From contig JAHRBS010000011.1 in the NCBI GenBank assembly GCA_024305745.1, positions 1,047,501 to 1,065,000 on the forward strand: a stretch of DNA of 17,500 bases, read 5' to 3'. Each line of letters starts with the position of its first letter. Position 1 is the stretch's first letter. Source of the stretch: Polyporus tsugae (lineage: Eukaryota; Basidiomycota; Agaricomycetes; Polyporales; Polyporaceae). The position numbers and the translations under genes were made by a program. The notes below the pieces were generated by a model. That model saw only the letters and a list, made by a program, of their open reading frames with translations, did no database searches and was not told the origin of the DNA. Positions 1 through 16,996 of this stretch are shown here, one piece after another.

Positions 1-427
1 TGTCGAAGTCCTCACCAGCCGAGTGAGTGTCTCTAGCAGCAGTCCTCCAAACCTATTCTCGGTTCTACCATCAGTGAAGTTTGTACTCGCAACTGGTGCA
101 CATTTATTGTGTTCTACCCGTCTTAGCCAACAATTAAAGAGGTGAATGCGACGCTACTTTACGGCATTAAAGGAAGCTGATTGTAAGACTAAGGGCAGTA
201 TGGTCAGGCGTCATGACAGCGGTGTCCGTCCGGGACGGACACTCTGCACGGGTTGGGACCAAGTGCGGTACTCGCTGAGCCGCCAAAACAGCAAACGTCT
301 CCAACTGACGTACTGCCACTAATAGATACTGTCCCTTGCGAGTGCAAACTTCACTGATGGTAGAACCGAGAATAGGTTTGGAGGACTGCTGCTAGAGACA
401 CTCACTCGGCTGGTGAGGACTTCGACA
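1..427. repeat. Fold-back (inverted-repeat) element 1, probably truncated by window edge
   Basis: Bases 1-92 are the reverse complement of 336-427, ungapped with about one mismatch. The left arm begins at base 1, so the element may extend beyond the window. A copy of the 19-bp palindrome with central G lies inside at 223-241. The left interior (about 93-222) is related to the left arm of the element at 1755-2297: both carry the same order of blocks around 'catttattg', 'gttctac', 'aggtgaatgcgac' and 'ggcatta' leading into the palindrome. The right interior (243-335) is not the mirror of the left interior, so this copy is asymmetric, perhaps rearranged. No coding sequence is visible in it. Confidence 0.85.
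223..241. repeat. 19-bp odd palindrome, copy with central G
   Basis: This is TGTCCGTCC-G-GGACGGACA, a perfect 9+1+9 palindrome extended by one more pairing base on each side. It lies inside fold-back element 1. The central G is rare here: most copies in the window have A or T. Confidence 0.9.
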
Positions 428-819
428 ACCGTCTCGTCACACACTTCTCACAGGAGTTCAATCCCATTTACAATTGAGTGAGAACATATGTGTAGGTGAA
501 ACACAAAGAGTAGAAAACATATAGCACAGTGTGGGAGGACGTCATATTCTGTCAATTAACAATATAGTAGGTTCACGCCCACATTGGCTTCTGAAGCGGA
601 CACGAAGTGGCCTGATATAGGAATTACGTGTTCTGTTGTAGAAGGAAGGAAGGGAAGGGATGTTCCGCGGTACCGAGGAACATGACTGTCTATGTATAGA
701 ATGAACCTGATGGACTTGAATGTACTAAGGAGTGTTGATGGAGACCCCGGCAAGAAGGGAGGACTTATGGGACGGACGGTGAAGTGAAAAGGAAGGCCGT
801 GGAGGTGCTGGCCGCATGG
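428..819. other. Intergenic region with no recognised feature
   Basis: The stretch between the first fold-back and the first gene is AT-richer up to about 560. An in-frame reading joined to the downstream gene is open from 739, where a TGA at 736-738 closes it, but it has no ATG in that frame. An upstream exon of the next gene could lie here; I could not define one. No palindrome copy was found. Confidence 0.5.
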
Positions 820-1518
820 ATGAGCCCGCCTGGCGATGAATATAAAGGGACCGCAAGTTGGGAGAGCAGCCATCGCATCACTGTCATTCTCACCGCTATG
901 AACTCTGTCGACCAGTTTGTGTCCTATGAGCTCAAGGCCTTCGTCGGCCGCATTGTCACCAGTAACCTATCCCCACCATCGACCCCCATCCCAGGCCCGA
1001 GGCCGCAGCCTGTTAGGTTCAGCGCGTCGTATGCGATGTCAGCATTCCTAATGCTAGTGCGCGCGCTGCCTCCGTTGGTGAATGTGGATAGCGAGTTCAG
1101 CACGCTGTACAGCCACCTCGCCAGCCTGCCGTATCACGAGCGGCCTAGCAGTCGGGCGCTGAGGGAGTTTGGTGAAGAATACTCCATCATTACGCGGGTG
1201 AGGCAGATGAACACGGCGCAAGACAACTTCAGCAACGCGATGCACTCGTACTTGCAAGCACGCAGGAAGGCCGAGAAAGCCGCAGCTCAGTATGCCCAGG
1301 AGGTGACCAACGGGGCAGAGTTCGCGCTGCAAATGGCGGATGCGGAGGTCGTGGACGCGAGGGTGCAACTGTTGGTGTACCTCAAACAAGACGTTACCAG
1401 TCTCCGCGAGCGTGCGTATTACCCGATCTATTCGCGGTGTAGAGTTGCTAACTGTTTCTCTGCAGTGACCACCGTTGTCAGGCACGGTGTGTTCTGGGGC
1501 TCGACAGCCGCGCCGTGA
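820..1518 (+). CDS. Unrecognised protein, about 214 aa, two exons
   Basis: I do not recognise this protein. The frame is GC-rich and protein-like from an ATG at 820 (MSPPGDEYKG) to TGA at 1516-1518. A probable intron lies at 1412-1465: donor GTGCGT, branch-like GCTAAC, pyrimidine tract and GCAG, 54 nt long like other introns in the window. Because 54 is a multiple of three, the frame is open with or without splicing, so the intron is inferred. Residues around 140-190 are Ala/Gln/Glu/Arg-rich and probably helical (NAMHSYLQARRKAEKAAAQY), suggesting a coiled coil. An earlier GTG at 784 is in frame but unlikely as a fungal start. The ATG context is weak and no TATA box precedes it, so the 5' end may be incomplete. 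It is isolated between two fold-back elements. Confidence 0.5.
   Translation: MSPPGDEYKGTASWESSHRITVILTAMNSVDQFVSYELKAFVGRIVTSNLSPPSTPIPGPRPQPVRFSASYAMSAFLMLVRALPPLVNVDSEFSTLYSHLASLPYHERPSSRALREFGEEYSIITRVRQMNTAQDNFSNAMHSYLQARRKAEKAAAQYAQEVTNGAEFALQMADAEVVDARVQLLVYLKQDVTSLRERAYYPIYSRCRVANCFSAVTTVVRHGVFWGSTAAP
1412..1465 (+). other. Probable 54-nt intron of the 820-1518 gene
   Basis: The donor is GTGCGT, GCTAAC lies 21 nt before the acceptor, and the acceptor tract is TTTCTCTGCAG. Length and signals match confirmed introns on the other strand. Phase 1; splicing joins C + TG into a Leu codon and keeps the frame. Confidence 0.5.
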
Positions 1519-1754
1519 GCGTTGATGTCGTCCTCCGGCGGCCGTCCTCGATACCCTCCAGTGGGCGAGAAAGCAGGCGAAGAGGACGGAGAAGGCGGGA
1601 GGAGGGTGCACGCGTGATGGTTGGGTCGGCGACAGCGATGTTTGGCGGGGGTGTCTGTATTTTGCGCATGGAGTTGGTTGATACGTTGTCATATCGCATA
1701 TTGTTTTGTAACATAATGTCATGGCCTGTCTTGGAGATGACTAGTGCATGAAGT
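1519..1754. other. 3' flank of the first gene
   Basis: GC-rich sequence to about 1620, then AT-richer sequence. It is probably 3' untranslated and intergenic DNA. No clear polyadenylation signal, palindrome or further gene was seen. Confidence 0.4.
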
Positions 1755-2345
1755 GGACGGACAGGTCGGATGTAAGGCCCTATGCAGACTGGCCTGCAAG
1801 GTTATCATTCGACGCTACTATTAAGTGGTGGATTAATGAATGCATCAATGCCTTTACCTGGCCGAGTTATTAGCACACCAGTGCGCATTTATTGGGTTCT
1901 ACTGGTGTTAGCTAATGATTAATAAAAGGTGAATGCGACACTACTCTAAGGCATTAACGGAAGCCAGTGGTAAGTTCACGGTCAGTGGTGGGAACACGGT
2001 CGGGCGCCATGCTAGAGGTGTCCGTCCTGGACGGACACCACTAGCGTGGCGCCTGACTGTGCTCCCACCACTGATCGTGAACTAATGACTGGCGTCCGTT
2101 AATGCCATAGCATCGCACTCACCTCTTTATTAATCATTAACTAACACCAGTAGAACCCAATAAATGCGCACTGGTGTGCTAATAACTCGGCCAGGTAAAG
2201 GCATTGATGCATTCATTAATCCACCACTTAATAGTAGCGTCGAATGATAACTCTACAGGCCAGTTTGCATAGGGCCTTACATCCGACCTGTCCGTCCTGG
2301 ACGGACACCTGCTGCACTGGCCCTGTCCACCACATATGCGTGCGG
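1755..2345. repeat. Fold-back element 2: about 540-bp near-perfect palindrome with 19-bp core
   Basis: The left arm (1755 to about 2027) pairs with the right arm (about 2029 to 2297) almost throughout, with small indels and scattered mismatches. The exact centre is a 19-bp palindrome copy at 2019-2037 (central T). The right arm runs into a second full copy at 2289-2307. The left arm begins with only the inner half of a copy (GGACGGACA, 1755-1763), so the outer limit coincides with the motif midpoint. To the right, 2308-2345 resembles the sequence following the motif in the array at 4003-4256 (cacctgcYgcactg), so the element probably continues there. No transposase frame is present, as expected of a non-autonomous fold-back or MITE-like element. 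Confidence 0.9.
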
Positions 2346-2672
2346 GGCTTAACCTCAGCAGTTGGAGTGAATATTAACAACAAACTAAGGGTGTACTTCG
2401 CTGTCAAGGCTTCAATTTCGTTATCACATTGCGTCATGAGCAACTTATAGGGCAAGAGTCTGCGGGCACTGCGCGAACGACGGTGGTGGCCGACACATTC
2501 CTCAAGTACGGATACCATGCACGAAGGTGCTGACATTGAACCGTAGTCAATGTTCTTCCTCAATGGAGAGGCCTGCCCTGTTGGACTTAGTCCCAGAACC
2601 GCAGTATAGCTTCGACGGATATCTTGAACCTCTACTCCGTCATGCGCACTCCGCGGCAGTGATATAATGACG
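2346..2672. other. Intergenic region with no recognised feature
   Basis: AT-richer DNA between fold-back element 2 and the promoter side of the gene at 2916. I see no coding exon, palindrome copy or RNA gene. Confidence 0.4.
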
Positions 2673-2817
2673 TAAGGTCGAAGTCCGAGAACTGGCTGAC
2701 ATCGACCTTTCCTCGGCTGTGGTTTGGCTGGAACCTTACCGTAAACGGTAGCTTCGCATACCTTCGCTTGTGGGCTAACTATTTTCCCCCTAGGCCAGCT
2801 TCCGGACTTCGGCCTTA
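2673..2817. repeat. Imperfect inverted repeat upstream of the 2916 gene
   Basis: Bases 2673-2697 and 2793-2817 are inverted copies matching at 20 of 25 positions, separated by 95 bp. The shared core is GTCCGAGA/TCCGGACTTC-like. It is unrelated to the 19-bp palindrome. It could be a small decayed element or a promoter feature. Confidence 0.5.
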
Positions 2818-2870
2818 CTTTGTCGTCCTAGCCCTTGCCGTAAGGAAGGCACGACTCTCACACTTTCGGG

Positions 2871-2878
2871 ATATTTAA
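2871..2878 (+). promoter_or_regulatory. TATA-like box of the 2916 gene
   Basis: ATATTTAA lies 45 nt before the ATG at 2916. The position is similar to the TATA box of the 14998 gene (39 nt). Inferred from sequence and spacing only. Confidence 0.5.
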
Positions 2879-2915
2879 TCCAGTCCCGACCTCACTGACC
2901 CCGCATTGAGTCACG

Positions 2916-3617
2916 ATGCGCCCCCTCCCCGTAGCGTCACGCACCAGCACCAGTACCGACGAGACTGTCCGCCCCCCCGTGCGTCCGCGGGACGTGGATG
3001 CTCAGAGCCTTCACCCGCTCTCTGCGGAGGATGCTGACGAACATGGAGAGGATGGGAGTCTCACTTCTACGGAGTCTGGCACCAATGACTCCGGGCAGTG
3101 CTCCATTGTTCTCACCAACAACCTCGGGGTCGATTGCTTGGTATCTGGGCGGGAGCTTGACGACGAAATTGAACTCGCCAACTACAATGCAACACAGCAT
3201 CGTGGGGTTAGAATACGCTCACTTGAAAAGGTCAGATCCACATGTTTGTCAGGATGCCAACCCCTCTGATGAATATGGTTTGCTAGCTCCCTCCGTGCCG
3301 CCCTCCTCCTCTAGGCCCATTACCACCCCCTCCTATTCAGCCTCTGCCTCCTGTGCGCTTCAGCGAGGCTCCACCTCCTGCTCAGCCTATGGGCATTGTC
3401 GACTCTTCTCCCTGGCGTCTTGCAAGGGCTTACAGTCCCGTTCGCCCCACTACTCGCCTGAGGGACGTAAGCACCCCACCGTAAGCCCAAGTTGTCTGTT
3501 TCTAGAGGCGTTTGCTTACCGGAATCTAGCTTTGACAGTGGTGGACCGTCGAGGGCTATTTCTTTCAAGCGCGAAGTGAATAAGAAACCTTGGTATGATG
3601 GATGCTGTTTCCAGTAG
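2916..3617 (+). CDS. Unrecognised proline-rich protein, about 198 aa, three exons
   Basis: I do not recognise this protein. Exon 1 is 2916-3230, starting at MRPLPVASRT. Intron 1 is 3231-3286 (GTCAGA...TGCTAG, 56 nt, phase 0). Exon 2 is 3287-3480. Intron 2 is 3481-3529 (GTAAGC...ATCTAG, 49 nt, phase 2). Exon 3 is 3530-3617, ending at TAG. The joined length is 597 nt, a whole number of codons. Exon 1 is acidic and Ser/Thr-rich. Exon 2 is strongly proline-rich (PPPPLGPLPPPPIQPLPP), then carries an Arg-rich segment (SPWRLARAYSPVRP). Exon 3 is basic and ends in KKPWYDGCCFQ. The sequence could be a Gag-like or other low-complexity fungal protein; nothing seen decides this. The second intron is less certain than the first, since a competing donor exists at 3467. 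A TATA-like box lies at 2871. Confidence 0.55.
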
Positions 3618-3869
3618 GCAAAAACTGCTACAGCTTATCTTGGCTTGTGAGGATTAGTAGGACGGCCTGTGGGTTACAAGTTGGGAGTTACATTGATTTG
3701 TGTTAGGCGAATATTGTGTATAATGTGATGATCTGTCTGGAGCTTAACGCCCTGAGGTGGCTGTAGCTAATGAGCTGCTTATGTGAACACCACGTAGACG
3801 TAGAACTTGATGGCGAAGTAGTGAGTTAGTCATCAACTTTTTACTAGATAAAGACGGAGCAGATACACT
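3618..3869. other. 3' flank of the 2916 gene
   Basis: AT-rich DNA with stops in all frames, probably 3' untranslated and spacer sequence. No motif copy or further exon was seen. Confidence 0.4.
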
Positions 3870-4002
3870 CTACACCAGTGTACCAATAATAACACACAGG
3901 GTGTCAAGACTTGATGTTAATGCGTCTATTGATGCAATGTTTAATAGCAGCATTGAATGAGAACAAAGCAATACATAGTAATGCCAGTCGGTATAGCATT
4001 GT
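3870..4002. repeat. Diverged arm related to fold-back element 2
   Basis: This stretch shares an ordered set of short blocks with the right arm of element 2 (about 2170-2290): a 'ccagtgt...aataa' block, 'attgatgca', 'ttaatagYagc', 'gaatga' and a 'ccagt...atag' block, ending just before a 19-bp palindrome copy. It seems to be an older, single-armed relative leading into the tandem array. Similarity was judged by eye. Confidence 0.5.
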
Positions 4003-4256
4003 GGTGTGAGCACCCGTCCTGTCCGTCCTGGACGGACACCTGCCGCACTGCATGTGCGTCCCACCATCCTCGGCCGTCCGTCCTGGACGGACACCTGCTA
4101 CACTGCATGTGCAGGACGGATACCACTGGGGTGTGAGCACCCGTCCTGTCCGTCCTGGACGGACACCTGCCGCACTGCGCGTGCGTCCCCCGATCCCCAG
4201 CCGTCCGTCCTGGACGGACACCTGCCACACTGCATGTGCAGGACGGATACCACTGC
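4003..4256. repeat. Tandem array, 2 x 127 bp, with four 19-bp palindromes
   Basis: Unit 1 is 4003-4129 and unit 2 is 4130-4256, about 94 percent identical. Each unit holds two palindrome copies, at 4020-4038 and 4075-4093, then at 4147-4165 and 4202-4220, so spacing alternates 55 and 72 bp. Each unit also ends in a motif half (caggacggata). The sequence just after each motif (cacctgcYRcactg) repeats within the unit, so the 127-bp unit is itself built from two related half-units. Confidence 0.9.
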
Positions 4257-4460
4257 TCTGTCACCTGCTGCCATTTACATCTGTACAATTGCGAGTGTGA
4301 TTCGTCATAATGAAATTCGGCAAGTAATAGTTATTGGATAACGAGAAGTTGCGCTAATAACAAGTGGCACGCTGAACAACGACCCATAGAACTTGAACAC
4401 GCACGAACGGCTGCTTTCACACGTGGCTGGACATGGGCCAGACAGGCATGGGTGCGTGGC
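4257..4460. other. Intergenic region with no recognised feature
   Basis: AT-rich stretch between the array and the next pair of palindromes. Nothing coding is supported. Confidence 0.35.
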
Positions 4461-4536
4461 CGTCCGTCCTGGACGGACAGGTGTCGTGCGAGGGGTGTGT
4501 GGGTGCCCGTGCAGCCGTGTCCGTCCAGGACGGGCT
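4461..4536. repeat. Pair of 19-bp palindromes
   Basis: A near-perfect copy with central T is at 4461-4479 (first base C). A damaged copy with central A is at 4518-4536 (right half ends GGACGGG). Starts are 57 bp apart with unrelated sequence between. They lie downstream of the helicase gene's 3' end. Confidence 0.8.
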
Positions 4537-4726
4537 CTTCTGGGTGCACAGCGCCAGCAGCACACACCTGTGATATTCCGCGTGAGCACAGCCTTGAGGA
4601 TTGATAGACGCGACAGTTCGTCGGGGAGAGGAATGTAGATGAGCTGGTCGGGAGGGGATCTGGTCAGGCCTGTTCGTCAAAAGGTTTGGAATCCGTCATG
4701 GACAAGGCAGGTAAGCCCTACATCCA

Positions 4727-4732
4727 TTTATT
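4727..4732 (-). terminator. Polyadenylation signal of the helicase gene
   Basis: AATAAA on the minus strand, 200 nt after the helicase stop codon. It is the only canonical signal seen in the 3' flank. Inferred. Confidence 0.45.
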
Positions 4733-4931
4733 GTACCGCGCAATTCAACCCGTGCTGTTCTGTTGAAGGGGGGGTCACAGATTGAGATTAAGAGGTATGG
4801 ATAAGGTAAACATATGGGAAGATACAGTCCTATCGACAGTCCAACAAACAATCTCAGCCGTGCGTCGTATCCAGAATGCTATAGTACAGTTGTCCGAGTC
4901 AAACGAGAGCGATATGCGAAGAATAACAAGT

Positions 4932-7900
4932 CTACTTGCGGCCGAGCTGACTCGCCTTACCAGGCCGGCCGCTCCCCGCGACCCGCTTCAGAAAAATGTC
5001 CTTGGCCTCCATTGGCCGATCGCTGTCGCTATCGTCGCGCCTAGATGCGCGGCCGGCAGAAGCCCCACCACCACGACCGCCGGCGGGAGAAGAGCCAGAG
5101 GCACCCGCGCCGCTCCCAGAGGCACCCGCGCCGCTCCCAGAGGCACCCGCGCCGCTCCCAGAGGCACCCGCGCCGCTCCCAGAGGCACCCGCGCCGCTCC
5201 CAGAGGCACCCGCGCCGCTCCCAGAGGCACCCGCGCCCTCTCCTGCAACCCTCTTCGCCGGTGGGCTGCGACCTTCGGGCGCCGGGTCCACGTCGAAGTC
5301 GAAATGAAAGTTCTGGGGGAGGGTGACTGCCTGGGCCAGTTGCTCTCTCTCGGCTTCCTCGCGTTTGCGCTTTAGGGCCTGCCTCTCCTTCTTCTCCTTC
5401 TTCTTCTGCCGCTTGGCCTTCTGCTCGTCGTCCACCTCTTCATCGCGATGCCCTGACACGTTGGCCGTGCGCTTCAAGGGGGGAGCGTTGGGGGTGGCGG
5501 GGGCGTCGGGACGGGTCTGACGCGAGGGCCCGGGCTCCGCGCGTGTGTCCTCGGTGCGCGCCGACGATGAGGCCGCTGGTGCCCTCGGTGTAGGCCTAAC
5601 CTTGGGCTTGGACACCTTGGGCTGGGGGGCTGGCTCGGGCACGGGCTCGGGCACGGGCTCGGGCGCGGGCTCGGGCGCGGGGTGCTTCTTCTTGTCCTTC
5701 TTGCTGTTCTTCCCCGCCGGCGCAGACTGGGACTGGCGCGATTCGAGCACCACTTCTGGCACGAGCTTCCTGCGGTCGCGCTTGGAGGGCTGGGTTGGGG
5801 CGGGCTCAGGCTGCTGGTCGTTGTCATCCTCGGGAGCGACCCTTGCGGTGGCGGCGACCTTGCTCTTGCCCTTGGCTCTCGGTTGCTCGGCCTCCTCGCC
5901 CTCGTCAGCGACGACGGCGGGCGACTTGGGCTTGGGCTTGGGCTTGGGCTTGGGCTTGGGCTTGGGCGTGGATGCACGGGTGGAGGCGGGGGGGGCTGCC
6001 TTGGCCTTACCCTTAGCCTTGCCTTTCGGCTGCTCGTCCTCGCTCTCCTCGTCGTCGCTCTCCTTGCTCTCCTCGTCTTCGTCAGCGACGACGGCGGGCG
6101 ACTTGGGCTTGGGCTTGGGCTTGGGCTTGGGCTTGGACGCGGGGGGGGCTGCCTTGGCCGCAGGCTTGGCCTTGCCTGTCGGCTGCTCGTCCTCGCCCTC
6201 CTCGTCCTCGCTCTCCTTGTCCTCGCTCTCCGAGCTCTCCTTGTCCTCGTCAGCGACGGCGGGCGGCTTGGCCTTGGCCTTGGACGTGGACGCCCGGGTG
6301 GACGCCTGGGTGGATGCACGGGTGGATGCCCGGGTGGCTGCCTTGGCCGCAGGCTTGGCCTTGGTCTTCGTCGCGGGCTCGGGCTCGGGCTCGTCATCCT
6401 CGTCACTGTCATCCCGGAGCCCGGCCGGAAGGAGATGACGGAAGATGGATTCTACAGTACATTAGTAAACAGCTGTTAGAGTCATAAAGATAATAATTAA
6501 AAACTTACTTGTCTGCTTCGACGACTTGGTGAAGGCGGCGAGGAGCGCGTTCTTCGAGAACGAGAGAACGCTCAGGAACATGTCCGTGGCGTGCTCGAGG
6601 CAAGGCTGGTAAACCAACACCTGCTTCTTCTGGGGGTGGCGCCAAATGCGACCGATCAGTTGAAGCAAGTCCTGGTGCGACCACATTTGATCCTGTTTGG
6701 ATGTTAGGTAAGAAATAACAACAGTAAGACATAGAACCTTACCAAGGCGACGAGGATGTTGGCCTGGGGGAGGTTGAGGCCCATCGTGCCAACGTTCGAC
6801 AACAGGCAAACACGGGGTCCGTCGCGGTCGGAGTTGCGGAACTTGGCTATGTCCTTTGAGCGCACGGACATGCGCTTGGAGCCGTTGACCTCGATGTACT
6901 TGATGCCGTAGAAGCTCAAGACCTGCGAAATCAAAGTGTATAAGTAATGATAACGACAGAAGAAAAGTGTTAATTGCCTTCGTGATGAGGTGGTTGTTGG
7001 AAGGGAAGGCGACGTAGACGATGATGCGGTCGGGATAGTCGGTTTCGTCGTCGCGCTCCTGCATTTTCCATTCGGGATCCGCCTCCAAGTCGTTGCTGTC
7101 TTGCGAGGGGCGGCGAAGGAGCGGGGCGTTGTCGTCGGCGAGGTGATGGAGGAGGATGTCGATGAGGTTCTGGAGCTTCGTAGAGGTGGTGGCCTCCCAC
7201 TCCTCCATATCTTTCGGCGCCCAGAGCGGGTCATCAAGGAGCTTGTAGTGGAGGTGGCTGCGGCGGAAACGACCGTAGAAAGCCTGGATGAACAGTGTGT
7301 GAGCAACAGTGGAGATGAACAAAGTGTGTCCGTCCCGGACGGACACCGGGGGATGGGCCCCTGCGGTTCAATAACAAATCGACGTGAAATCCACCACGCC
7401 GCATTTCACGAGGTCTCAGTGGAAATCTATCCGTCCAGGACGGACAAGGAGAGCGAGGGGCCTGCCCGATGTCTTCTCGTCTCCCCACGCGCCAATGGTA
7501 TCCGTCCCGGACGGACAGGTGAGAGGGAGGGGCCCGCCTGCCAGTGGTCTCGCGGAGATCCACGACACTCTTGGCGGCATCCGGCCCATAGACAGGAGTC
7601 AGCGCAGAAGTGTCCGTCCCGGACGGACACCTGCAGCCACCGTGCTTGCATCACGATTGCCACCAGTGCGAAACCGTGAACAGGCATCGGCGCGCTATGT
7701 GTCCGTCCTGGACGGACACCTCTGACACTCCAGCCTGCCGCATGTTGGGACGCGGCACTGTGCCCCTGTGTGTCCGTCCAGGACGGACACTTCGAGACCC
7801 GGTCGTGTCTCGAAGCGTCCGCCCTGTGTGTCTTGAGTATCAACGAGAACGAGAAGACTTACGTGTCCTTCAGCCTGCGCAACCATCGCGGCAGTGCGCG

Positions 7901-10452
7901 CGGTGTCGTGCTCAGCGACGATCGCGGCTGCTGTCGCCTCCAACACCTCCGACTCCTCGTCCAACGGCGTGAGCATTATTTGTTGGGCGACGTAAGGGCT
8001 CAGCCCCGAGATGGGACGCCCCTCCCAGTCGACGGCGTCCAGGGTGCGGCGGATGGTGTGGCCGTTGAACATCTTGCGAAGCGCGACGGTGTACGAGGTC
8101 ATTTGCTTGACCTGCTCCTTCTTGGCCGGGAGGTCGATCTCGCCGTTGAGGATCCCCTGTACGAAGTCGCCGTCCTCGCGAGCGTTGCGGAACTCGATGT
8201 TGGACTTGCGCGCGGCGGCCATGAGCTTCTTCTTCATGTCGACCAAGAGTGTTTCCTCCTCGCAGGCGGGGATCCCGATACACCGGCCGATGTACACCAA
8301 GTCCTGTTAAAGGGCAGTCAGTATGGTCCCACAACCAGCATAAGAAACGTACTTACCAAGGGCGAGTTCGTGATGGGCGTCGCCGTCGCCGCGATGGTGC
8401 AGTGGGAGAGGAGGGAGAGCTCGTTCATCGTCGTCCAGTGGTGGCTGGGGTTGCGCATCTTGGCCGCCTCGTCGATGGTGGTGATGCCGAACTGGTAATC
8501 GTACAGCATCGACCTCATGGGCAGCGCGGAGTCACGTTCGGGCCGCTGGGGAGCGATCTTCTTCGTGTTCGTGAACCGCTGCGAACAATCGGACTCGGCG
8601 GCCTACAGACGTTAGCATGCATATTCAGAAGTTAATAAACAAAGCTGGGCTGCTTACCGTGTACGCGACGAGCAGAACCTTGTGGCTCAGCGTCTGCTTG
8701 TCGTCCTTGAGGTGGAACACTTCGTCCCAGATCGCCATCCTCCCGGACTGGGCCCACTGGTGCTTGTACGGGTAGATGTCGACAGAGCCGAACTTGACGT
8801 ACCGCTTGAACTCGAACATCCATTGGTCGAATAGCGGGACCGGGACGATGATGAGGTGGGGACGGTCGGGCAAGTTCCCGTCCGGCGTGTCGCACTTCAG
8901 GCCCTCTGTAATACACACTGTTAGTAAATGCAAGTAACGAGCAGAAAAGGCAAAGACTTACTGAATTGCGGGGGGAACCTTTTGTTCCTCTGGTAGTACG
9001 CGCGAAGCATCGGGTACATGACTATGGCGCCGACGATCTGGAGCGTCTTGCCGACGCCGACTTGGTCCATGAGGAGGAGGGGTTTGCCCTTGATGATGAG
9101 CTCGCACATCTTCGTGATCCCGACGAGCTGATGCCACCGGGGACCGAAAGCGAGCGCCTTGTCGGTGTTGACGAACTTAGCCCACTGCGTCGGGTCCCAG
9201 GGGTTGACCTCGCCACGCGGATCCTCGACCTCGTTGAACCCAGGGATCTGCTCGTTGTTCAGCCCAAGGCCGGCCCAAAGCTCCTGCGGGTCCTTGTCCT
9301 GGAGGTCCTCGACGCCCGTCAGCCAGTCCGAGAAGTCGAACTCGTCGGCAGCTTCGGCGACCGCGTCGAGGTAGTGTTCGGGGAGGTCGTCCATCGCTTG
9401 CTCGAGCTCGCACAGGACGATGTGCACCGTTGGCGTGTCCGCGAGGGCCTTGAGGGCCTTCAGGAGGCCGGCGGGAATGCCTGTAAATCAAACGCGTCAG
9501 TAACACAAATGTAAGAACAGTAACAAAAGGTGTTTACGGTCGTGCTTCGCCTCCTTGACTTTCGCCGCCACCTCGTACATCTGCTCGAGCCTGGTCTTCC
9601 ACGCAGCGACGAGCTCCACCATGGCCGCGTCGCCGAACAATTCCGACTTGGTGACCGTCCGCTTGATACGCTGGATGATCCGAGCGATCTCGGAGGGGGT
9701 GGGCACTGCGTCGGGGGACTCGAGTGCTACAAACAAAGGTCAGCCTGCAAGCTGCGAAATGGGACTTGGGGCTTACCTGCAACGTCCCGCGCCAACTTAT
9801 CCTCGCTCTTGACCGCGCCCGCACGCGCCCGCTTCCACGCCCGCCCCCTCGAGTCCCACGCCGAAACGATGAGACCCCCAACGACCGGCATGAGGGGGAT
9901 GTGGACGACCTGGATCGACCCCACCCCCGTGACGCAGTCGGGGCCGAACATCGCAAGGGCGAGGTTGGGGGCGACTACGTCACGGATACCGAGGTCCGTC
10001 GCATTCGGCCACTGTGCACATAAGTCAGTAAACCGTATAATAAACAACTACACTAAATAAACTACTTGGTCGCGCTTGAGGGCCTTGGGGACGTCGAACG
10101 TCTTGAAGCTGCAGGTATCGAGAGTCGAAGCGACCAACTCCGAGATCTCCCATTCCGCCCACTTGTCAGCCGCCCACTTCTTCACGATCACGCGCCCCTC
10201 CTGGTGCGCGTCGGTCCGCCCGCGAACAAACTGCAACCGTTTGGCGGACCCCACTTCCTCCAACCAGCGCCGATAAAAAACCTTTGCTAATTTGTATTCC
10301 TTTTTGTTCATGCCGGCCGTCTTGTAAGTCGCCTCTGGGCCGAACGGCATCGCGAGGAGGCCGGTACGGTCTTGCCAAACGTTCCACGTGAACGACTCCG
10401 GCGTGTCCGCGCAGATGGTGAGGAGGTGGCTGACGTTGTCGAGGGAGGGCAT
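4932..10452 (-). CDS. SNF2-family helicase/ATPase with long low-complexity tail, about 1484 aa, 11 exons
   Basis: Exons on the minus strand: 10452-10066, 10011-9777, 9726-9538, 9480-8962, 8905-8658, 8602-8357, 8303-7863, 7283-6978, 6922-6743, 6692-6509, 6451-4932. They total 4455 nt, exactly 1485 codons. Helicase motifs appear in order: Walker A (LLLMDQVGVGKT, about 405-416), Ia-like (PHLIIVPVPLFDQW), II as DEAA at 570-573, III (AATATPITN, about 600), IV (RIIVYVAF, about 840), V (LSNVGTMGLNL, about 898-908) and VI (QLIGRIWRHPQKK, 928-940). This order is that of SNF2 ATPases, nuclear proteins that translocate on DNA and remodel chromatin. After about residue 980 the tail is low complexity: acidic stretches, Lys-Pro and Glu-Pro repeats, a basic KAKRQKKKEKKERQ nuclear-localisation-like patch and a seven-fold GAGASGS repeat. 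The canonical DEAH is DEAA here. The start at MPSLDN is preferred because an ATG at 10524 lies only about 14 nt after the TATA box. Confidence 0.88.
5096..5242. repeat. 21-bp minisatellite, about 7 copies, in helicase tail
   Basis: Copies begin at 5096, 5117, 5138, 5159, 5180, 5201 and 5222; the first six are essentially identical and the last diverges after about 16 bases. On the minus strand each copy encodes the heptad GAGASGS. The unit length is a multiple of three, so copy-number change keeps the helicase frame. All three plus-strand frames are also open across it, giving spurious open frames. Confidence 0.95.
5904..6300. repeat. Imperfect coding repeats (about 170-180 bp) with hexanucleotide runs in helicase tail
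   Basis: The block around 'gtcagcgacg' recurs near 5904, 6081 and 6249. The first two lead into runs of the hexamer GGGCTT (about 5928-5967 and 6104-6136), which read as Lys-Pro dipeptides on the minus strand. Each module encodes an acidic stretch, a PAVVADE-like motif and an Ala/Lys/Pro stretch. A similar Glu-Pro run lies at about 5635-5685. The repeats are part of the helicase coding sequence. Confidence 0.8.
6923..6977 (-). other. GC-AG intron (intron 8) of the helicase gene
   Basis: The donor is AAG|GCAATT and the acceptor TTTCGCAG. The length of 55 nt matches its neighbours, and phase 0 joining restores TK|VLSFYG and motif V. The only GT donors nearby would give introns under 40 nt. All other introns of this gene are GT-AG. 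Confidence 0.7.
7284..7862 (-). repeat. Expanded 579-nt helicase intron carrying six 19-bp palindromes
   Basis: Donor GTAAGT (7862-7857) and acceptor CATCCAG (ending 7284) are phase 0 and join AEGH to AFYGRF. The other nine introns of the gene are 50-57 nt. Palindrome copies are at 7327-7345 (centre C), 7428-7446 (A), 7499-7517 (C), 7611-7629 (C), 7700-7718 (T) and 7771-7789 (A). Two copies begin TATCC instead of TGTCC. Inverted bases 7790-7798/7807-7815 (cttcgagac) add a hairpin beside the last copy. The sequence outside the outermost copies (about 73 nt on the donor side and 43 nt on the acceptor side) would by itself be close to an ordinary intron, so the motif-bearing middle looks inserted. 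Confidence 0.85.
7547..7580. repeat. 34-bp block shared with 10761-10794
   Basis: It matches 10761-10794 in direct orientation at 31 of 34 positions; the shared core is tctcgcggagatccacga. Here it lies between two palindromes in the expanded helicase intron. Confidence 0.8.
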
Positions 10453-10537
10453 GCTGTCGAGTTGGTGGGTGCTGGTGAGCTTGAAGGTGGTGGGGAGAAA
10501 GGGGGTTGGAGGGAGCGGGCGCATCGAACTCTGTCTG

Positions 10538-10544
10538 ATATATA
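10538..10544 (-). promoter_or_regulatory. TATA box of the helicase gene
   Basis: TATATAT on the minus strand, about 86 nt before the preferred ATG at 10452. A pyrimidine-rich stretch (CCTTTCTCCCCACC) lies between, typical of fungal core promoters. It is only about 14 nt before the in-frame ATG at 10524, which argues against that start. Confidence 0.6.
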
Positions 10545-11017
10545 CCGCCCAACATGAGGCGGCGGCGACCACAATGAGCCCTGGCCCGACCCTGAACACG
10601 CGGTGTCCTCAACGATCCCTCGAGGAAGTTGCATGGCCTTTTCGGGAAAAGAACCTCGTGGAGGTTGCAATTGACTTCCTAAATAGAAACCTCGACGTGA
10701 TGGCCGCGGACACAACGACCACATGCTCCGTGGCCTGCCTGTCACGTCCTCGGACTCCGAGTCTCGCGGAGATCCACGATACTCTGGGCGGTATGTTTCT
10801 TTGTACCCAACGCGGGTGCGGGGCTGCACTTGTTGATGGGCTTGTTATTTACTTCTAGGAGGTCAAGCAAAAGCACCTCTCTGGCAATCCATTCCCGGGC
10901 TGAGACAGCGCGTCCTGGACGGACACGCACAGTGGAAACTGGCATTCGCTGGTGCATGTCACCGTACCTCAGCTGACTGATGGCTTCACTCACCGCGCCG
11001 CACCGCGGGGCGAGATG
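10545..11017. other. Helicase upstream region with one decayed palindrome
   Basis: This lies between the helicase TATA box and the fold-back. It contains the 34-bp block shared with the helicase intron (10761-10794) and a half-decayed palindrome at 10907-10925, whose right half GGACGGACA is intact. No coding exon is supported. A CT/AG-rich segment lies at about 10610-10690. Confidence 0.5.
10761..10794. repeat. 34-bp block shared with 7547-7580
   Basis: Second copy of the block found inside the helicase intron, matching at 31 of 34 bases. It stands 113 bp from the nearest (decayed) palindrome. Confidence 0.8.
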
Positions 11018-11705
11018 AGTCTGTCCTGGACGGACACAGACAGAGGCGGGGATGTTCTGCCATAGTTCAACTGGCAAGACCGGCAAATGTGTCCGTCCTG
11101 GACGGACACATAGGGAGGGAGCCCTGCACTGTACTTTGCTCCAATGATCACATTTCAGGGAGCAGAACTGTCCGTCCTGGACGGACACATGGGGTGTGGG
11201 AGCTGTTCGGGCGCTCTCAGGCCTCACCGACTCTTTATCCGTCCTGGACGGACAAACTGGGCTTATGGCCTGCACTATATTTGACATATCATTTGCATTT
11301 GTTAATCCTCAGTCGCTGGGCATTTGTTGATCCCCTGTCAATGGCTAAGCCACGGAGCAACCTCCTTGGCCGAGCCATTGACAGAGGATCAGCAGCCTCT
11401 GGGGCCCAGCACTTGACAGAGGATTAACAAATGATATGTCAAATATAGTGCAGGCCATAAGCCCAGTTTGTCCGTCCAGGACGGATAAAGAGTCGGTGAG
11501 GCCTGAGAGCGCCCGAACAGCTCCCACACCCCATGTGTCCGTCCAGGACGGACAGTTCTGCTCCCTGAAATGTGATCATTGGAGCAAAGTACAGTGCAGG
11601 GCTCCCTCCCTATGTGTCCGTCCAGGACGGACACATTTGCCGGTCTTGCCAGTTGAACTATGGCAGAACGTCCCCGCCTCTGTCTGTGTCCGTCCAGGAC
11701 GGACG
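11018..11705. repeat. Fold-back element 3: 688-bp palindrome with eight mirrored 19-bp motifs
   Basis: The left arm 11018-11291 and right arm 11432-11705 are reverse complements, ungapped, with only a handful of differences. Motif centres pair exactly (positions sum to 22723): 11027/11696, 11099/11624, 11178/11545 and 11245/11478. Motif spans are 11018-11036, 11090-11108, 11169-11187, 11236-11254, 11469-11487, 11536-11554, 11615-11633 and 11687-11705. The inner 140 bp is also mostly palindromic, centred near 11361, apart from small indels (one is a duplicated 'catttg' in the left arm). Both ends lie in a motif copy. It sits between the 3' end of the 1028-aa gene and the helicase promoter. The two mirrored open frames it holds are by-products of the symmetry. 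Confidence 0.95.
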
Positions 11706-11803
11706 CGTCTCGACCGAGCCACGCGTGAAACGAACACTCGCAGCTGAGAATCAAACTACGCATATATTTGTATGAAACACGTTCGGTGTACTTTCACGAA
11801 ACA

Positions 11804-14800
11804 CTAAACATCACTGTACGCGTCGAAATCTACGAAACGGTCAGAGTTCACGCGGCGGCGCTTCGGGCCCCGTTCCTCGTCAGACGCGTCAAGTCCGTCG
11901 AAAAGGGCACACTCAACGAGCTCCGGGCTAGAAGGGAACATGAGTACGGGCGAGGGCGGCGGGCTCCAGTCGTCGTGACCGCGAGTGAGTCCGATGGAAA
12001 AGACATCCACCGGGGGCTCGCTCAGAGCCCGGCCCACTTCGACCCCACTGCTAGACTCCTCTTCTTCTTCGCGACGATAAGCGTTACCGCGGCCCGCCCC
12101 TCCGGCCTGACTGGCACTACTCCCCGCAACGCTCGGGGAACGTTCACGCTCGCGGGCATGCCCACCACCTGGGAGGCTGCGAATGCTGTCGAGGAGGGGA
12201 CCGACGCTGTGGGCGAGATCGAGGCGAGGCTCTCCGTGGGTCATGTTGATCGTTTGGAGGCGTTGGGCTAGCTCGACCCACGCGGCGTCTTCCTCGTCTT
12301 CCGGCTCGGCCTCCCGAGCGCGCGGGTTAGGCGCGCCGAGCAGAAAGACGGCGCGAGGATCGGGGCACTTGGCGCTGTTGACGACGATATGAACGGCTGG
12401 TTCGTCGTGCCCGGGAGGAAGGGCCCTCCAGCCTGCAGGGAGCGGATGCCAGGCCTTGCTCTTCCACATGCGATCCGAATAAGGATGCGGGAGCCAGGAC
12501 AGCCCTCGGAATAGAATCCAAAGCTCATCGCGGATAACCGTGGCGTCGTGGTCTGAGAGGCGGCCTATCTCGCCAATGTAGCTCGAGAAATAGCGGGCGT
12601 TGCGGAAGTTCTGAAGGCGATCGGAGAGAACAGTCCCTTTGGGCGGGAAGAACTTGTCGAAGACGAGTTCTCTCCATTGCTGCTCATTGCAAAGGCGCAG
12701 GTACGCGGCCTCGAAAGGAAGCTCGACAGCTCGGAAGAAGTCGTGGGTCACAGCCTCGCGCGCAGCTTGGCTCAGCTTGATGTACGAAGGCTTGTGCCGA
12801 TTCTTCTGGTTCGGGGAGCATTGGATGATGTCGGAAGGGAACTGGGCCCAGAGAAGAGAGAAGGCGCGATCCAAGGAAACTTCTTCGTCCTCCGGGTCGT
12901 CGAGGTTCTCGATGTCAGGGCCCGTCATTTGCATGGTGGGGATGCGCGCGACGCCGTGTTGAGTGAGGGTGAAATTGTGAAGGGTAAGCTGACCTCTGAC
13001 AGCCTGGATGGGGACGGTGGGCCGCCTGGTGTTGGTCCGGTCCTTGTGTGATCGACTGTAGATGGAGAGGCCAAAAGAACGCCCGCCGAAGGCCTTCGCG
13101 ATGTCGTGTAGGTTGGGCTTCTTGTAGAGGATAGCGAGTTCCTCCCGTTCTAACTGACGGACAGCGGCGAGACGGAAGACGCCATGAGTTTCGTCGCGCA
13201 CGAGACCGGCGATGAAGTAGAGGCCACGGTCGAGGGTGCAAGGGACGAGGTTGACGTTCTCGAACTCGGCATCCGCATAGTCTGCCTCGTAGGGGTGGAC
13301 GTGGGGATGGGTCCAAAACGCGCACTGCCTGCCAAGCTCCTCCTCGATCCTCTTCCCGGAAGGGCGGTAGATGACAGCGTTGAACATGTAGACGCAGACA
13401 GCACCCAACATGAGGCTGGGTGTCCAAGAACGAGCATCGGGAGGGGAGCTTGCCAACTCTTTGAAGAGCCGGTAGAGCGCCGATGCGCGGAAGAACTTGA
13501 AGTACCTTTATAAATGAACTATTAGAAAGCTTACAGGTAACCATAGACAGAGGACTTACCACCAGATGGCGGAGTCCACGGCGAGAATCGACTCCGTGAC
13601 GAGGTCGTCGGGGATGTCTGCGAGAGCCTGCTTGGCATACAAGAGGCCGACGCGGGCCTCCATACGAGCTGCACCGTTCTGGAGGACACCGGAACCCCCT
13701 GCGCAGTCGGCGAAGGTCTCTGCGACGGTGTCGACGTCGGAAAGGAACTTCTCGAAAGGGTTGGGCAAGAGGTCCTGCGCGGTGCGACGCCGATAGGTCC
13801 CTGCGTGCTGCTGATAGGTCGCTGACTTGTCGGTGGTGTAGACGTTGATATAGGAGACATGGTCAGCGCGCCCTTTCGTCCCCGTCTCGAGGCGGAAGCC
13901 GGACAATGCTGTGAGGTGTCCGCTGAGGTCCTCCTTGAAAGCTTTGCTGCGCTTCAAAGCGATGGCCTGGTCCTCTGAGATAGAGGGAAGCATGTGTCGA
14001 ATGAGCCGGGTGTGACTTTCGGTCAGCCATTGCATAACCCGGCCCTCAGCGTGAACTTCCAGGGCGACGTCGACAAACCAACGTGACTCCAACTCCTCGT
14101 CGGGAATAAGCTGCTGGTCGATGGGGTCCAAGACCGCTGCAAGGGCCTCACTGCGAGCCCACCAATCCTGGGGGTTGTGAGCGCTGGAAGCCTTCACGCC
14201 TTTGGCCTCGATCTCGAAGAAGGCATCCGCGAAGCTCTCGTCGAGCTGGGCCAGGCGATCGAGGAGCTCGCGCGCGAAGGCCTCAAGAAAGACCTGGGTG
14301 ATGTCCTTGGTAAGGGCGCCGAGCTGGCCAGTGCGGCTCCGAACGAGACGAGTGACGTGACTGAAATTCACCGGCCACTGGACTGCGAGTTCGGGGGCGA
14401 CAGCCCCGAGGGCGGGACGGATGGCATCATCGTAGATGGAGGCCAAGACCTCGTTACTAAGCGTGGGAGGGACGTGCGGGTCGTATCGCTTTGGGAAGAA
14501 GAGACGACCCTGGTGGCGGGTCCTGAACTTGAAGCAAAGGCAGTTCGGAATTTTGTGAAGCGGGACCTGAAGGGTGGCGTTCTGAATAACAGAGTGGGTG
14601 AGAGTGGTGACGATTGATGTAGGTTATTTACTTACATTTCTGGTGATAGGCCACTTGATGTGGACGGAAGTGGTAAGGGTCTCGGAGAAAGGGGGAAACA
14701 AGTGCCAGGTGATAGACTTGCTGAATGGAAGGAGACGAGTGAGACCGATAACAGAGTCAAAGTCGCCAAGAATGGTGTAACATTCGGGAAACTCGCATTC

Positions 14801-14998
14801 GTAACGGGGATTAATGAAAAGACGGCGTTGGTTGGTGTTCGCATTGGGGCGGGTTATGGGTGCGCGACCCGCGAGGACTAGGTTGACGAAACGGTCGATG
14901 TTCTCGTCGTTACAGTACTGTTCAGCGAGTTGTACGAACTCCGTAAGGCCGATGGTTCGAGGAGGGAGAGGCTCATCAGGGAACAGCGGTGGCGCCAT
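11804..14998 (-). CDS. Unrecognised large protein, about 1028 aa, three exons
   Basis: I do not recognise the family. Exons on the minus strand are 14998-14636, 14581-13560 and 13505-11804. The introns are 54 nt each: 14635-14582 (GTAAGT...TTCAG, phase 0) and 13559-13506 (GTAAGT...TAAAG, phase 2). The joined length is 3087 nt, exactly 1029 codons. The start MAPPLFPDEP has a good context (AACCATGG) and a TATA box 39 nt upstream. The first 750 residues look globular, mixed alpha/beta with Trp and aromatic residues throughout. No signal peptide, membrane segment or catalytic motif is evident. The last 250 residues are disordered: acidic stretches, REREREP/Ser-rich parts, a run of five Glu (REEEEESSSG) and a basic nuclear-localisation-like GPKRRRVNSDR near the C-terminus. 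This suggests a nuclear protein. It lies upstream of the helicase on the same strand, separated by fold-back 3; no shared function can be claimed. Confidence 0.85.
13506..13559 (-). other. 54-nt intron 2 of the 1028-aa gene
   Basis: Donor GTAAGT, branch-like CTAATA, acceptor TTTATAAAG. Phase 2 joining gives TG|G (Trp) and restores the frame into the last exon (WYFKFFRAS). Confidence 0.8.
14582..14635 (-). other. 54-nt intron 1 of the 1028-aa gene
   Basis: Donor GTAAGT, acceptor TTATTCAG, phase 0. It joins WPITRN to NATLQV. Confidence 0.8.
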
Positions 14999-15029
14999 GG
15001 TTGCAGATCGACTTGCACGGAGCGATGTG

Positions 15030-15037
15030 ATTTTATA
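15030..15037 (-). promoter_or_regulatory. TATA box of the 1028-aa gene
   Basis: TATAAAAT on the minus strand, 39 nt before the ATG at 14998. It is the best TATA match in the window. Confidence 0.7.
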
Positions 15038-15063
15038 CCGAGGCCTGCACTGGGATACAGACC

Positions 15064-15082
15064 TGTCCGTCCTGGACGGACA
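15064..15082. repeat. 19-bp palindrome in the promoter of the 1028-aa gene
   Basis: A perfect copy with central T, 26 bp upstream of the TATA box. It is isolated: the next copy is 239 bp away and no fold-back arm surrounds it. Confidence 0.9.
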
Positions 15083-15303
15083 CGGAGGACAGGTCACCTG
15101 TCGACTTTGCGGGTGGGTGCCCGCTGGGCCGCTGGGCCCCGACACGCGGTGACGAGAGGCTCGTCGTTGCGACTGGAGTGATACAATAGGTGGAATACAG
15201 TGTCCGTTGCTAAGGCGGCCTCGAGGACTCAACATGTGTCGAATTCAGGACCAATGTGCAACATGAGGACGATGGGCCGCGAGCGGGAAACAGTTGAACC
15301 TCC

Positions 15304-15687
15304 CTGGGCGGTGGCGGATGTGTCCGTCCAGGACGGACAGCTGCGGTGGGACGCACGCACTTTGCCTCGTGTCTGCCGCGTTGAACGTAAGCTTAGAGGT
15401 ATCTATCACACGAGGACAATACTCAACGGTGGATAAATGTTCAACAGTCGGGGACAGTGCCCGACGTTACCGTCCAGGACGTACACCACGCTGTACTGGG
15501 CGGTGGCGGATGTGTCCGTCCTGGACGGACAGCTGCGGTGGGACGCACGCACTTTGCCTCGTGTCTGCCGCGTTGAACATAAGCTTAGAGGTATCTATCA
15601 CACGAGGACAATACTCAACGGTGGATAAATGTTCAACAGTCGGGGACAGTGCCCGATGTTACCGTCCAGGACGTACACCACGCTGTA
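15304..15687. repeat. Tandem duplication, 2 x 192 bp, each with one good and one decayed palindrome
   Basis: Unit 1 is 15304-15495 and unit 2 is 15496-15687, with only a few differences. Good copies are at 15321-15339 (centre A) and 15513-15531 (centre T). Decayed copies are at 15467-15485 and 15659-15677 (TTACCGTCCAGGACGTACA), identical in both units, so the decay predates the duplication. The one-base centre difference between the two good copies arose after it. Because 192 is a multiple of three, a repetitive open frame runs through, but I do not regard it as a gene. Confidence 0.95.
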
Positions 15688-15959
15688 CAGATATGCCTCA
15701 TGGCCAGACCCTCAGTTACACATGAGAGTCCGAGGAGCCTAGAAACTTGACGACAGCGGGAGCTTATGACACTCCTCTTCGCCTAAAAACACGTTGAACA
15801 AGGGCATTATTATTACTCATCTAGTGGGGCAGACAAACACGGTAGCGTCCTCGCTACTGCCATCTCCCCTTGTCCTGTCCAATGCCATGATACTTGCCGA
15901 ATTCCCTTGGTGCCGCCAGCACTCGAGGGTGCACTCGTGGACGAGAATGGACGGGATAC
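15688..15959. other. Region with no recognised feature
   Basis: No supported exon, palindrome or RNA gene. The open frames crossing it are short and lack fungal-gene composition. Confidence 0.35.
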
Positions 15960-16150
15960 CACCTAGCTTTTGGGGCAGATGTGAAAATTCGATATTTGCC
16001 AACGTGTCGAGACCAACATCAACAACGCAATTGCACCACCTCAGTCACCTTCCAGCGTTGCAGGCAAGAACCGGATCCCCAGGGACCTCGCAACTTCGAA
16101 GACGCTGAGCGTCTCATCGGTCGCAAGTTCCGAAAGCCAAGGCAATACCG
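15960..16150 (+). pseudogene. Probable decayed Hsp70 N-terminal fragment
   Basis: One plus frame reads DAERLIGRKF at 16101-16130, very close to the conserved Hsp70 ATPase-domain segment D-A-K-R-L-I-G-R-K-F. In the same frame, QQRNCTTSVTF at about 16014-16046 resembles the phosphate-binding GNRTTPS-VAF segment. An adjacent frame reads GRCENSIFAN just upstream, resembling RVEIIAN. The order agrees with Hsp70 residues about 25-80, but the segments lie in two frames and the intervening residues are shortened. No start and no downstream domain were found. This is recognition by eye from known family motifs; an active gene is excluded by the shifts. Confidence 0.45.
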
Positions 16151-16232
16151 GGTGATTTTACGGGTTGGGTAGTGGTGGCTACTGGGCAACACAGCGAAGA
16201 GAGACCGATCAATTCATGTGGGGCGCAGCGAA

Positions 16233-16251
16233 CGTCCGTCCTGGACGGATG
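16233..16251. repeat. 19-bp palindrome, slightly decayed
   Basis: CGTCCGTCCTGGACGGATG: core intact, outer bases changed. Single copy just before a CT-rich stretch (16275-16385). Confidence 0.75.
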
Positions 16252-16422
16252 GTTCTCGTTTCGGTGAGTAGGTGTGTCCGCCCCTACCTCCTGAGTTACT
16301 ACTTACTCCTTCACCTTGCCCCTATCGTCTCCTCCGGCCCTCTCAACATCCCTTCCTCTGCCCCCTCCGGCGCCTTCACTGCCTACGTTCTCGCTGAATT
16401 AGGGAGCCTGGGTTGAACGCTC

Positions 16423-16493
16423 ATGAACGACTCGAGCTTGAACTTCGAGCGGGACTTCGCGGCGTGGTTTGACCCCGAGAACGCGAACGCATT
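16423..16493 (+). CDS. Orphan first-exon-like segment, unrecognised (partial)
   Basis: The frame starts at an ATG at 16423 and reads MNDSSLNFERDFAAW then FDPENANA, with strongly protein-like composition, up to a perfect donor GTAAGG at 16494. Unspliced, the next codon is TAA. A CT-rich stretch (16275-16385) lies upstream, as in fungal promoters. I could not find a convincing second exon; the sequence after the donor holds palindromes at 16591 and 16655. It could be the first exon of a gene whose intron was invaded, or a relic. Confidence 0.35.
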
Positions 16494-16590
16494 GTAAGGG
16501 GTGTCCGCACCCTGGGAATGGGAATTCGATGCCGCTCTTTGCTTGTTCCTTCCATGCGGTGATCTTCCTTTCCGGCGCACATGCCCCGAG

Positions 16591-16673
16591 TGTCCGTCCT
16601 GGACGGACAAGGCGGTGAGTGTGCCCGTGGCGGCAATTGGCCTGGGGCCCCCGGTGTCCGTCCTGGACGGACA
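16591..16673. repeat. Pair of perfect 19-bp palindromes
   Basis: Perfect copies with central T at 16591-16609 and 16655-16673, starting 64 bp apart. They lie downstream of the GTAAGG donor of the orphan exon. Confidence 0.9.
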
Positions 16674-16822
16674 CGTAATTGAGGAGTCGTGACGGGGTAA
16701 CGAAGGTGTACAGGCGACTATGAGACCATTCAATCAGTCAGCCAACGTCAAAAAATAGATAACATGTACATGCAGGGCACTAGGGCATCTTAGCTCCTGT
16801 AGCTGATTGTCTTTGCAACAGC

Positions 16823-16996
16823 TGCTCGTTCAGGACGGACACCCTGCCACTTCCTGTCAACTATTTGGTAATCCTGGACGGACGCACCCCGCTGGGAGTC
16901 CAGCCTGATATTGAAACAGTCCGTCCAGGATGGGATACCTCCTACCACTCGCCCCCTGTCCCTCCTAGTGCCGAACCGGTCCATCCTGGACGGACA
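16823..16996. repeat. Run of four decayed 19-bp palindromes
   Basis: Degenerate copies are at 16823-16841 (right half intact), 16866-16884 (right half nearly intact), 16919-16937 (left half intact) and 16978-16996 (one change in the left half). Starts are 43, 53 and 59 bp apart. In each, one half is preserved better than the other, consistent with an old array. Confidence 0.7.

Follow-up and report, generated by a model that had tools for sequence, protein, structure and literature searches.

What role do short palindromes play when dozens of copies lie among a few genes near a chromosome end? A 17,500-nucleotide stretch of the Polyporus tsugae genome (the window, C14:1047501-1065000) raises this question. 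An earlier note on this DNA had described a dispersed 19-bp palindrome in about 35 copies. The palindrome, TGTCCGTCC-N-GGACGGACA, is indeed found 34 times at three mismatches or fewer (18 perfect copies, 8 with one mismatch, 3 with two and 5 with three), compared to an average of 0.01 in dinucleotide shuffles. The window is subtelomeric, because contig C14 ends at 1,068,522, 3.5 kb beyond it, and it lies within a duplicated cassette. The predicted content of the cassette is an SNF2-type helicase gene and two further genes, gene2 and gene1; all gene models are predictions. Judged from sequence, the palindromes are likely arrays of binding sites for a dimeric protein, which is likely encoded by the cassette, with a private version of the site for each cassette type. 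We give this reading about an even chance.

Palindromes in a subtelomeric cassette

The 43.2-Mb genome contains 197 perfect window-type sites and 339 with two or fewer mismatches (0 and 4, respectively, for a reversed-pattern control). Among the matches listed, all are less than about 40 kb from contig ends. TTAGGG repeat arrays are found at contig ends, and near the telomeres of C14, C16 and C3 the palindrome forms the core of a 70-71-bp tandem repeat, which adjoins the telomere on C14 and lies less than about 2.5 kb from it on C16 and C3.

In genome searches, copies of the gene2 exon with 100% identity turned up at 8 places and copies of the helicase exon with 99-100% identity at 9, less than about 30 kb from contig ends. 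With diverged paralogues included, the total matches are 10 and 11, respectively. Near-identical copies beside telomere repeats at many chromosome ends are a trait of subtelomeric helicase cassettes (Y'/TLH-like), and this trait is observed here. Our comparisons cover one genome and three cassette types, the window type at at least 8 places and the types on C2 and C5. The possibility that all palindromes belong to one annotated repeat family, considered in the earlier note, holds in part: the listed copies belong to a single subtelomeric duplicon or to pieces of it. It does not extend to the palindromes inside the duplicon, whose flanks are mutually unrelated. Within the window, none of the 34 sites overlaps an exon of gene2 or the helicase gene, though these exons make up 7,544 of the 17,500 bases (43%).

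The palindrome is larger and less free than first described. Its central base, said to be free, is mostly A or T (30 of the 34 window sites and 167 of the 197 perfect sites genome-wide). Base preferences run 18 bp beyond the 19-bp core on each side and then end, and the information per block of five bases falls from 1.18 at positions 16-20 to 0.19 at positions 21-25 (null 0.35). The tetranucleotide CCTG is found at +15 to +18 in 14 of 63 outward flanks after related flanks were removed, compared to a maximum of 7 in 1000 rotations; with a slightly different set of flanks, the count was 15 of 62. Of the 34 window sites, 3 have CCTG or a one-base variant (CCCG, GCTG) on both sides, 14 on one side and 17 on neither. 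Between this outer box and the intact core, several spacer positions are close to random. The core was also compared between copies whose flanks, scored with the core masked, are 78-91% identical, leaving out 330 comparisons with flanks above 93%. It matches at 19 of 19 positions in 70 of the 77 comparisons, of which 50 come from the telomere-side 70-bp tandem units and are therefore non-independent. Five of the remainder have 17 or 18 matches, and two fall in a gap.

Private palindromes in the paralogous cassettes

Only two diverged paralogues of the gene2-helicase pair were found in the genome, on C2 and C5. Amino-acid identity to the window pair is 56% in the gene2 exon and 49% in the helicase exon for C2, and 48% and 44% for C5. 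The window motif (three or fewer mismatches) was not found in C2:1-17000 or C5:17501-26500. The wider stretch C5:14501-33500 contains one match with three mismatches (16251) and five sites at 32600-33140, which belong to a window-type block at its edge.

Families private to each locus were sought as any odd palindrome of the 9-1-9 form, with five shuffles each; gaps of 0 and 2 were also tried. Seven perfect 9-1-9 palindromes were found at C2 and three at C5 (12 with arms of 8), compared to none or at most one in the shuffles. With a gap of 0 or 2, none were found in either locus. The C2 family is TGGNCYTCC-N-GGARGNCCA, and 32 sites are present in the first 17 kb at three or fewer mismatches to TGGCCYTCC-N-GGARGGCCA. 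The C5 family is ACCCGACC-W-GGTCGGGT, with 38 sites in 19 kb at two or fewer mismatches. All three families have the frame CCNNCC-W-GGNNGG and a layout of 17-19-bp dyads (9-1-9 or 8-1-8) with mostly an A/T center. Among independent sites, the center is A or T in 26 of 30 for the window family, 26 of 28 for C2 and 25 of 26 for C5. The median spacing of neighboring sites less than 200 bp apart is 72 bp in the window, 85 bp in C2 and 81.5 bp in C5.

Each family is nearly confined to its own cassette type. C2-type sites (three or fewer mismatches) and C5-type sites (two or fewer) were not found in either of the other two loci. Genome-wide, the C2 cassette accounts for 26 of the 32 C2-type sites at two or fewer mismatches (control 4) and a copied block on C13 for 2; the other 4 are lone sites. 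Likewise, the C5 cassette accounts for 37 of the 43 C5-type sites at one mismatch or fewer (control 0) and a copied block on C17 for 4; the other 2 are lone sites. Eleven further stretches of 10 kb, all at left contig ends and one of them read only in small part, gave no such array.

The sites also occupy matching places. Coding matches (tblastn) to gene2 and the helicase cover 36% of the C2 stretch and 31% of the C5 stretch, and overlap none of the 32 C2 and 38 C5 sites. A homologous helicase intron of 579 bp in the window, 607 bp in C2 and 643 bp in C5 contains 6, 7 (four or fewer mismatches) and 6 (three or fewer) sites of the local family, respectively. In the window, this predicted intron (7284..7862, minus strand) is the only long one in the gene, the other nine measuring 50-57 bp. 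Its six sites (7327, 7428, 7499, 7611, 7700 and 7771) form an array at 7327..7789, to which the copy of the cassette on C8 adds a further 68-bp module, center to center, at 7508.

The C2 family has an outer box of its own, GCAG at +6, seen in 11 of 50 flanks (null maximum 6; none of 1000 rotations reaches 11). In this family, the most variable of the three, changes in the left and right half-sites are independent of each other. At position 4, 8 of 28 sites are symmetric (shuffled mean 11.0), and at position 6, 12 of 28 are (shuffled mean 13.5); symmetric cells overall number 193 of 252 (shuffled mean 197.0). This fits protein half-sites and not a paired stem, so pairing is not what is kept. 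The suggestion in the earlier note that two inverted half-sites are conserved, as at the site of a dimeric protein, is strengthened by this independence.

A proposed cassette-encoded reader and its alternatives

A reader encoded by the cassette is suggested because the three families are nearly confined to their own cassette types, at matching places. Gene2 and the helicase gene are candidates for it because no other gene was found in all three types; for gene1, C2 gave no match. A dimer would read the two half-sites and touch the outer boxes, and the gene2 protein or the helicase would be this reader or part of it. Site and reader would have diverged together. Bound arrays might recruit the SNF2 motor to the cassette that encodes it, so that this DNA is packaged, silenced or kept at the chromosome end. 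This is the least supported step, proposed because it fits the gene content. The cassette could then be described as a self-addressing element, in which an SNF2 motor, paired with a protein that belongs to no known family, has a private dyad address in the gaps between the genes and in an intron of the motor gene. The address would have diverged together with the proteins, and the cassette lineages would no longer read each other's sites. This description is tentative and falls somewhat short of an even chance.

In ParB-parS, plasmid iterons and CENP-B boxes, a protein encoded by the element reads an array of dyad sites. As in these systems, many short, partly symmetric sites lie near the gene of the presumed reader, and the site sequence differs by lineage. 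Unlike them, the cassettes studied here are located in a eukaryotic subtelomere, have intronic sites and combine a 17-19-bp core with outer boxes, and their reader is only a candidate. Multi-copy, near-identical, telomere-proximal helicase genes at several chromosome ends are shared with yeast Y' elements. They are also shared with the subtelomeric RecQ-like helicase cassettes of Ustilago, Magnaporthe, Metarhizium and Agaricus bisporus var. burnettii (PMC7473861). In contrast to these, the cassette described here combines a helicase of the SNF2 type with an unknown 1028-residue gene and with private dyad arrays; a term search of the main text of PMC7473861 did not find the word "palindrome".

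It has long been known that fungal chromosome ends carry helicase genes, whose function is not clear. A private array with an SNF2-type helicase and an uncharacterized partner would provide a biochemical handle on which protein binds which dyad. The handle bears on what such elements do for themselves or for the telomere, and the three paralogous systems in one genome are a natural specificity-switch experiment.

Several observations weigh against reading the palindromes as sites of a dimeric, cassette-encoded protein. The co-divergence of sites and proteins is drawn from three cassette types in one genome. No Pfam family was found in gene2 or gene1. Among independent sites, perfect symmetry is seen in only 17 of 30 in the window family, 2 of 28 in C2 and 6 of 26 in C5. 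The outer-box signal of the C5 family is weak (10 of 52, null maximum 9), and the window and C5 families are too invariant for the test of half-site independence. At four mismatches, two C2-type matches (6533 and 11669) overlap coding matches. In addition, purifying selection on the sites is not measurable between recent copies. CpGs differ in 9 of 312 comparisons in sites and in 14 of 1900 at other non-coding CpGs, and non-CpG bases in sites differ no more or less than the background (2 of 1055 compared to 28 of 13682); several of the differences within sites fall at junctions between modules, where the alignment may be wrong. Because recent copies are not protected, the sites may be kept over the long term by turnover and homogenization rather than by selection on each site.

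The independent variation of the C2 half-sites would also suit a host-encoded dimeric regulator, such as a Zn2Cys6 protein, that controls or silences subtelomeric cassettes. An everted CCG-N7-CGG, as in fungal Zn2Cys6 sites, can be written into the window-family palindrome, and the C5 half-site also has CCG. However, the homologous C2 family lacks a CCG/CGG triplet in this position, and the Zn2Cys6 site proposed in the earlier note does not carry over to it. The outer boxes and the private families are further differences from Zn2Cys6 sites. Three near-confined site families would require three host regulators, and few sites exist elsewhere in the genome (the lone C2-type and C5-type sites). 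We consider a host regulator unlikely.

The palindromes could themselves be mobile, as self-copying units of 19 bp (or 55 bp) with one family per cassette. Dispersed palindromes are also found in REP/RAYT systems, Helitron ends and yeast mitochondrial GC clusters, the last of which the earlier note had named as an analogy. Many copies have unrelated flanks, the combination of a palindrome and a tetranucleotide at a fixed distance resembles REP/RAYT and Helitron ends, and the long helicase intron resembles a short intron filled by an array. Unlike in these systems, no transposition signature was seen in the copies compared. Between the window and its C8 copy (16.8 kb), no 19-bp unit is gained or lost. 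The two large indels that involve sites, of 55 bp and 68 bp, span from palindrome center to palindrome center, which is what recombination between repeats gives; any other indel is either short or located in the coding repeats of the helicase tail. The matched stretches of other partial copies contain no 19-bp indel, a comparison that does not cover indels breaking a match. The families stay almost wholly with their own cassettes and are not widely spread through the genome, and the C2 half-sites are not kept complementary. A near-random spacer beside an intact core is not what copying followed by decay gives. Mobility of the palindromes appears rather improbable. A Helitron 3' end (a hairpin followed by CTRR) was considered separately and rejected, since the tetranucleotide is CCTG and the base after it is unconstrained (20 C, 16 A, 14 T and 12 G, n = 62).

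A structural element, either a DNA cruciform or an RNA hairpin acting in transcripts, replication or recombination, would be consistent with the predicted folding. A one-base loop had been thought to make a hairpin awkward, but a DNA hairpin with an 8-bp stem and a 3-nt loop is predicted to fold at -7.5 kcal/mol, and the predicted hairpins are stable (-7.5 to -8.3 kcal/mol). The edges of indels and inverted repeats also coincide with palindromes. The C2 family, however, lacks compensatory variation, an Rfam search gave nothing at the gathering score, and sites are also located between genes and in the telomere-side tandem repeats. A structural role is improbable. That the palindromes are passive leftovers of old tandem arrays, homogenized by subtelomeric recombination and read by nothing, is highly improbable: dyads do lie within tandem units of 70, 127, 192 and 218 bp and within inverted duplications, and no purifying selection is seen between recent copies, but intact cores amid unrelated flanks, outer boxes at fixed distances, exon avoidance, the same intron in three paralogues and symmetric cores with the same CC-W-GG center in three families are left unexplained.

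Genes, sites and repeats along the window

The SNF2-type helicase gene (4932..10452, minus strand) is predicted to encode an intact protein of 1484 residues with 10 introns. Its only Pfam domains are SNF2-rel_dom (7.5e-16) and Helicase_C, and its best solved relatives are SNF2-family remodellers. A RecQ-type helicase was rejected on both grounds. The spliced model is collinear with Ganoderma adspersum V8D89_016232, including across the long intron. The homologues found are this G. adspersum protein (40% identity) and a distant Pisolithus protein (28%). Another predicted intron, at 6923-6977 (minus strand), is of the GC-AG type. The C-terminal tail is rich in Lys and Pro. It is encoded by repeats with units of 21, 153, 6 and 12 bp (4932-6451, minus strand), some of which are present in different numbers in the window and on C8.

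Gene2 (11804..14998, minus strand) is predicted to encode an intact protein of 1028 residues and contains two 54-bp introns. No clear fold match was found for its second exon (about residues 122-462). Named homologues are present in Dichomitus, Polyporus and G. adspersum. The gene2-like V8D89_016230 and the helicase-like V8D89_016232 of G. adspersum are each on a contig of length 33,846. Gene1 (739..1518, plus strand) is an open frame of 259 residues, or 206 from the ATG at 898, with 10 genome matches at 99-100% identity and 12 at 62-63%.

Three large inverted repeats, at 1-427, 1755-2297 and 11008-11715, have arms of 92, 172 and 288 nt that are 97-99% complementary, with dyads in or between the arms. 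A perfect palindrome with a G center (223..241) lies between the arms of the first (1-92 and 336-427). At the outer edge of the 172-nt arm of the second is the right half of a palindrome alone (1755..1763), a half-site that is likewise present in the paralogous stretch of L025. Near the middle of the same inverted repeat is a perfect palindrome with a T center (2019..2037). Another perfect palindrome with a T center, at 2289..2307, has CCTG at +15. The array at 4020..4220 consists of four sites (4020, 4075, 4147 and 4202), and its C8 copy has one extra 55-bp module, center to center. Two further sites, 4461 and 4518, occupy 4461..4536.

The region between the helicase gene and gene2 contains an array at 10907..11254 (sites 10907, 11018, 11090, 11169 and 11236). 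The left arm of the 288-nt inverted repeat starts at 11008, and its right arm contains the mirror array at 11469..11705 (11469, 11536, 11615 and 11687). The spacer between these arms appears inverted in the C8 copy. Upstream of gene2, a perfect palindrome with CCTG at +15 is located at 15064..15082. Two 192-bp tandem units follow at 15321..15677 with sites at 15321, 15467, 15513 and 15659. The last sites are a decayed one with three mismatches (16233..16251), two perfect ones at 16591..16673 (16591 and 16655) and decayed ones at 16823..16996 (16823 and 16978).

Some observations concern other contig ends. Junctions at which C2-type (C13) or C5-type (C17) palindromes lie near window-type ones are seen at L031 582-707 and 1072-1159 and at L032 273-547 and 968-1055. 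The junction blocks are about 98-99.8% identical to other cassettes, which points to recent segmental exchange. An unrelated A/T-ended odd palindrome, AAAAGTCGA-W-TCGACTTTT, is found near the left ends of C7 and C11, in two copies on each (L011 2675 and 6546; L015 815 and 866), and a similar sequence is present in L025. At about 2900-4700 of L025, the telomere-side stretch at the right end of C3, we observed other repeats, inverted copies of TTGGCGCAAGG, and a possible spliced gene starting MASTSTSTGSKKC (read by eye).

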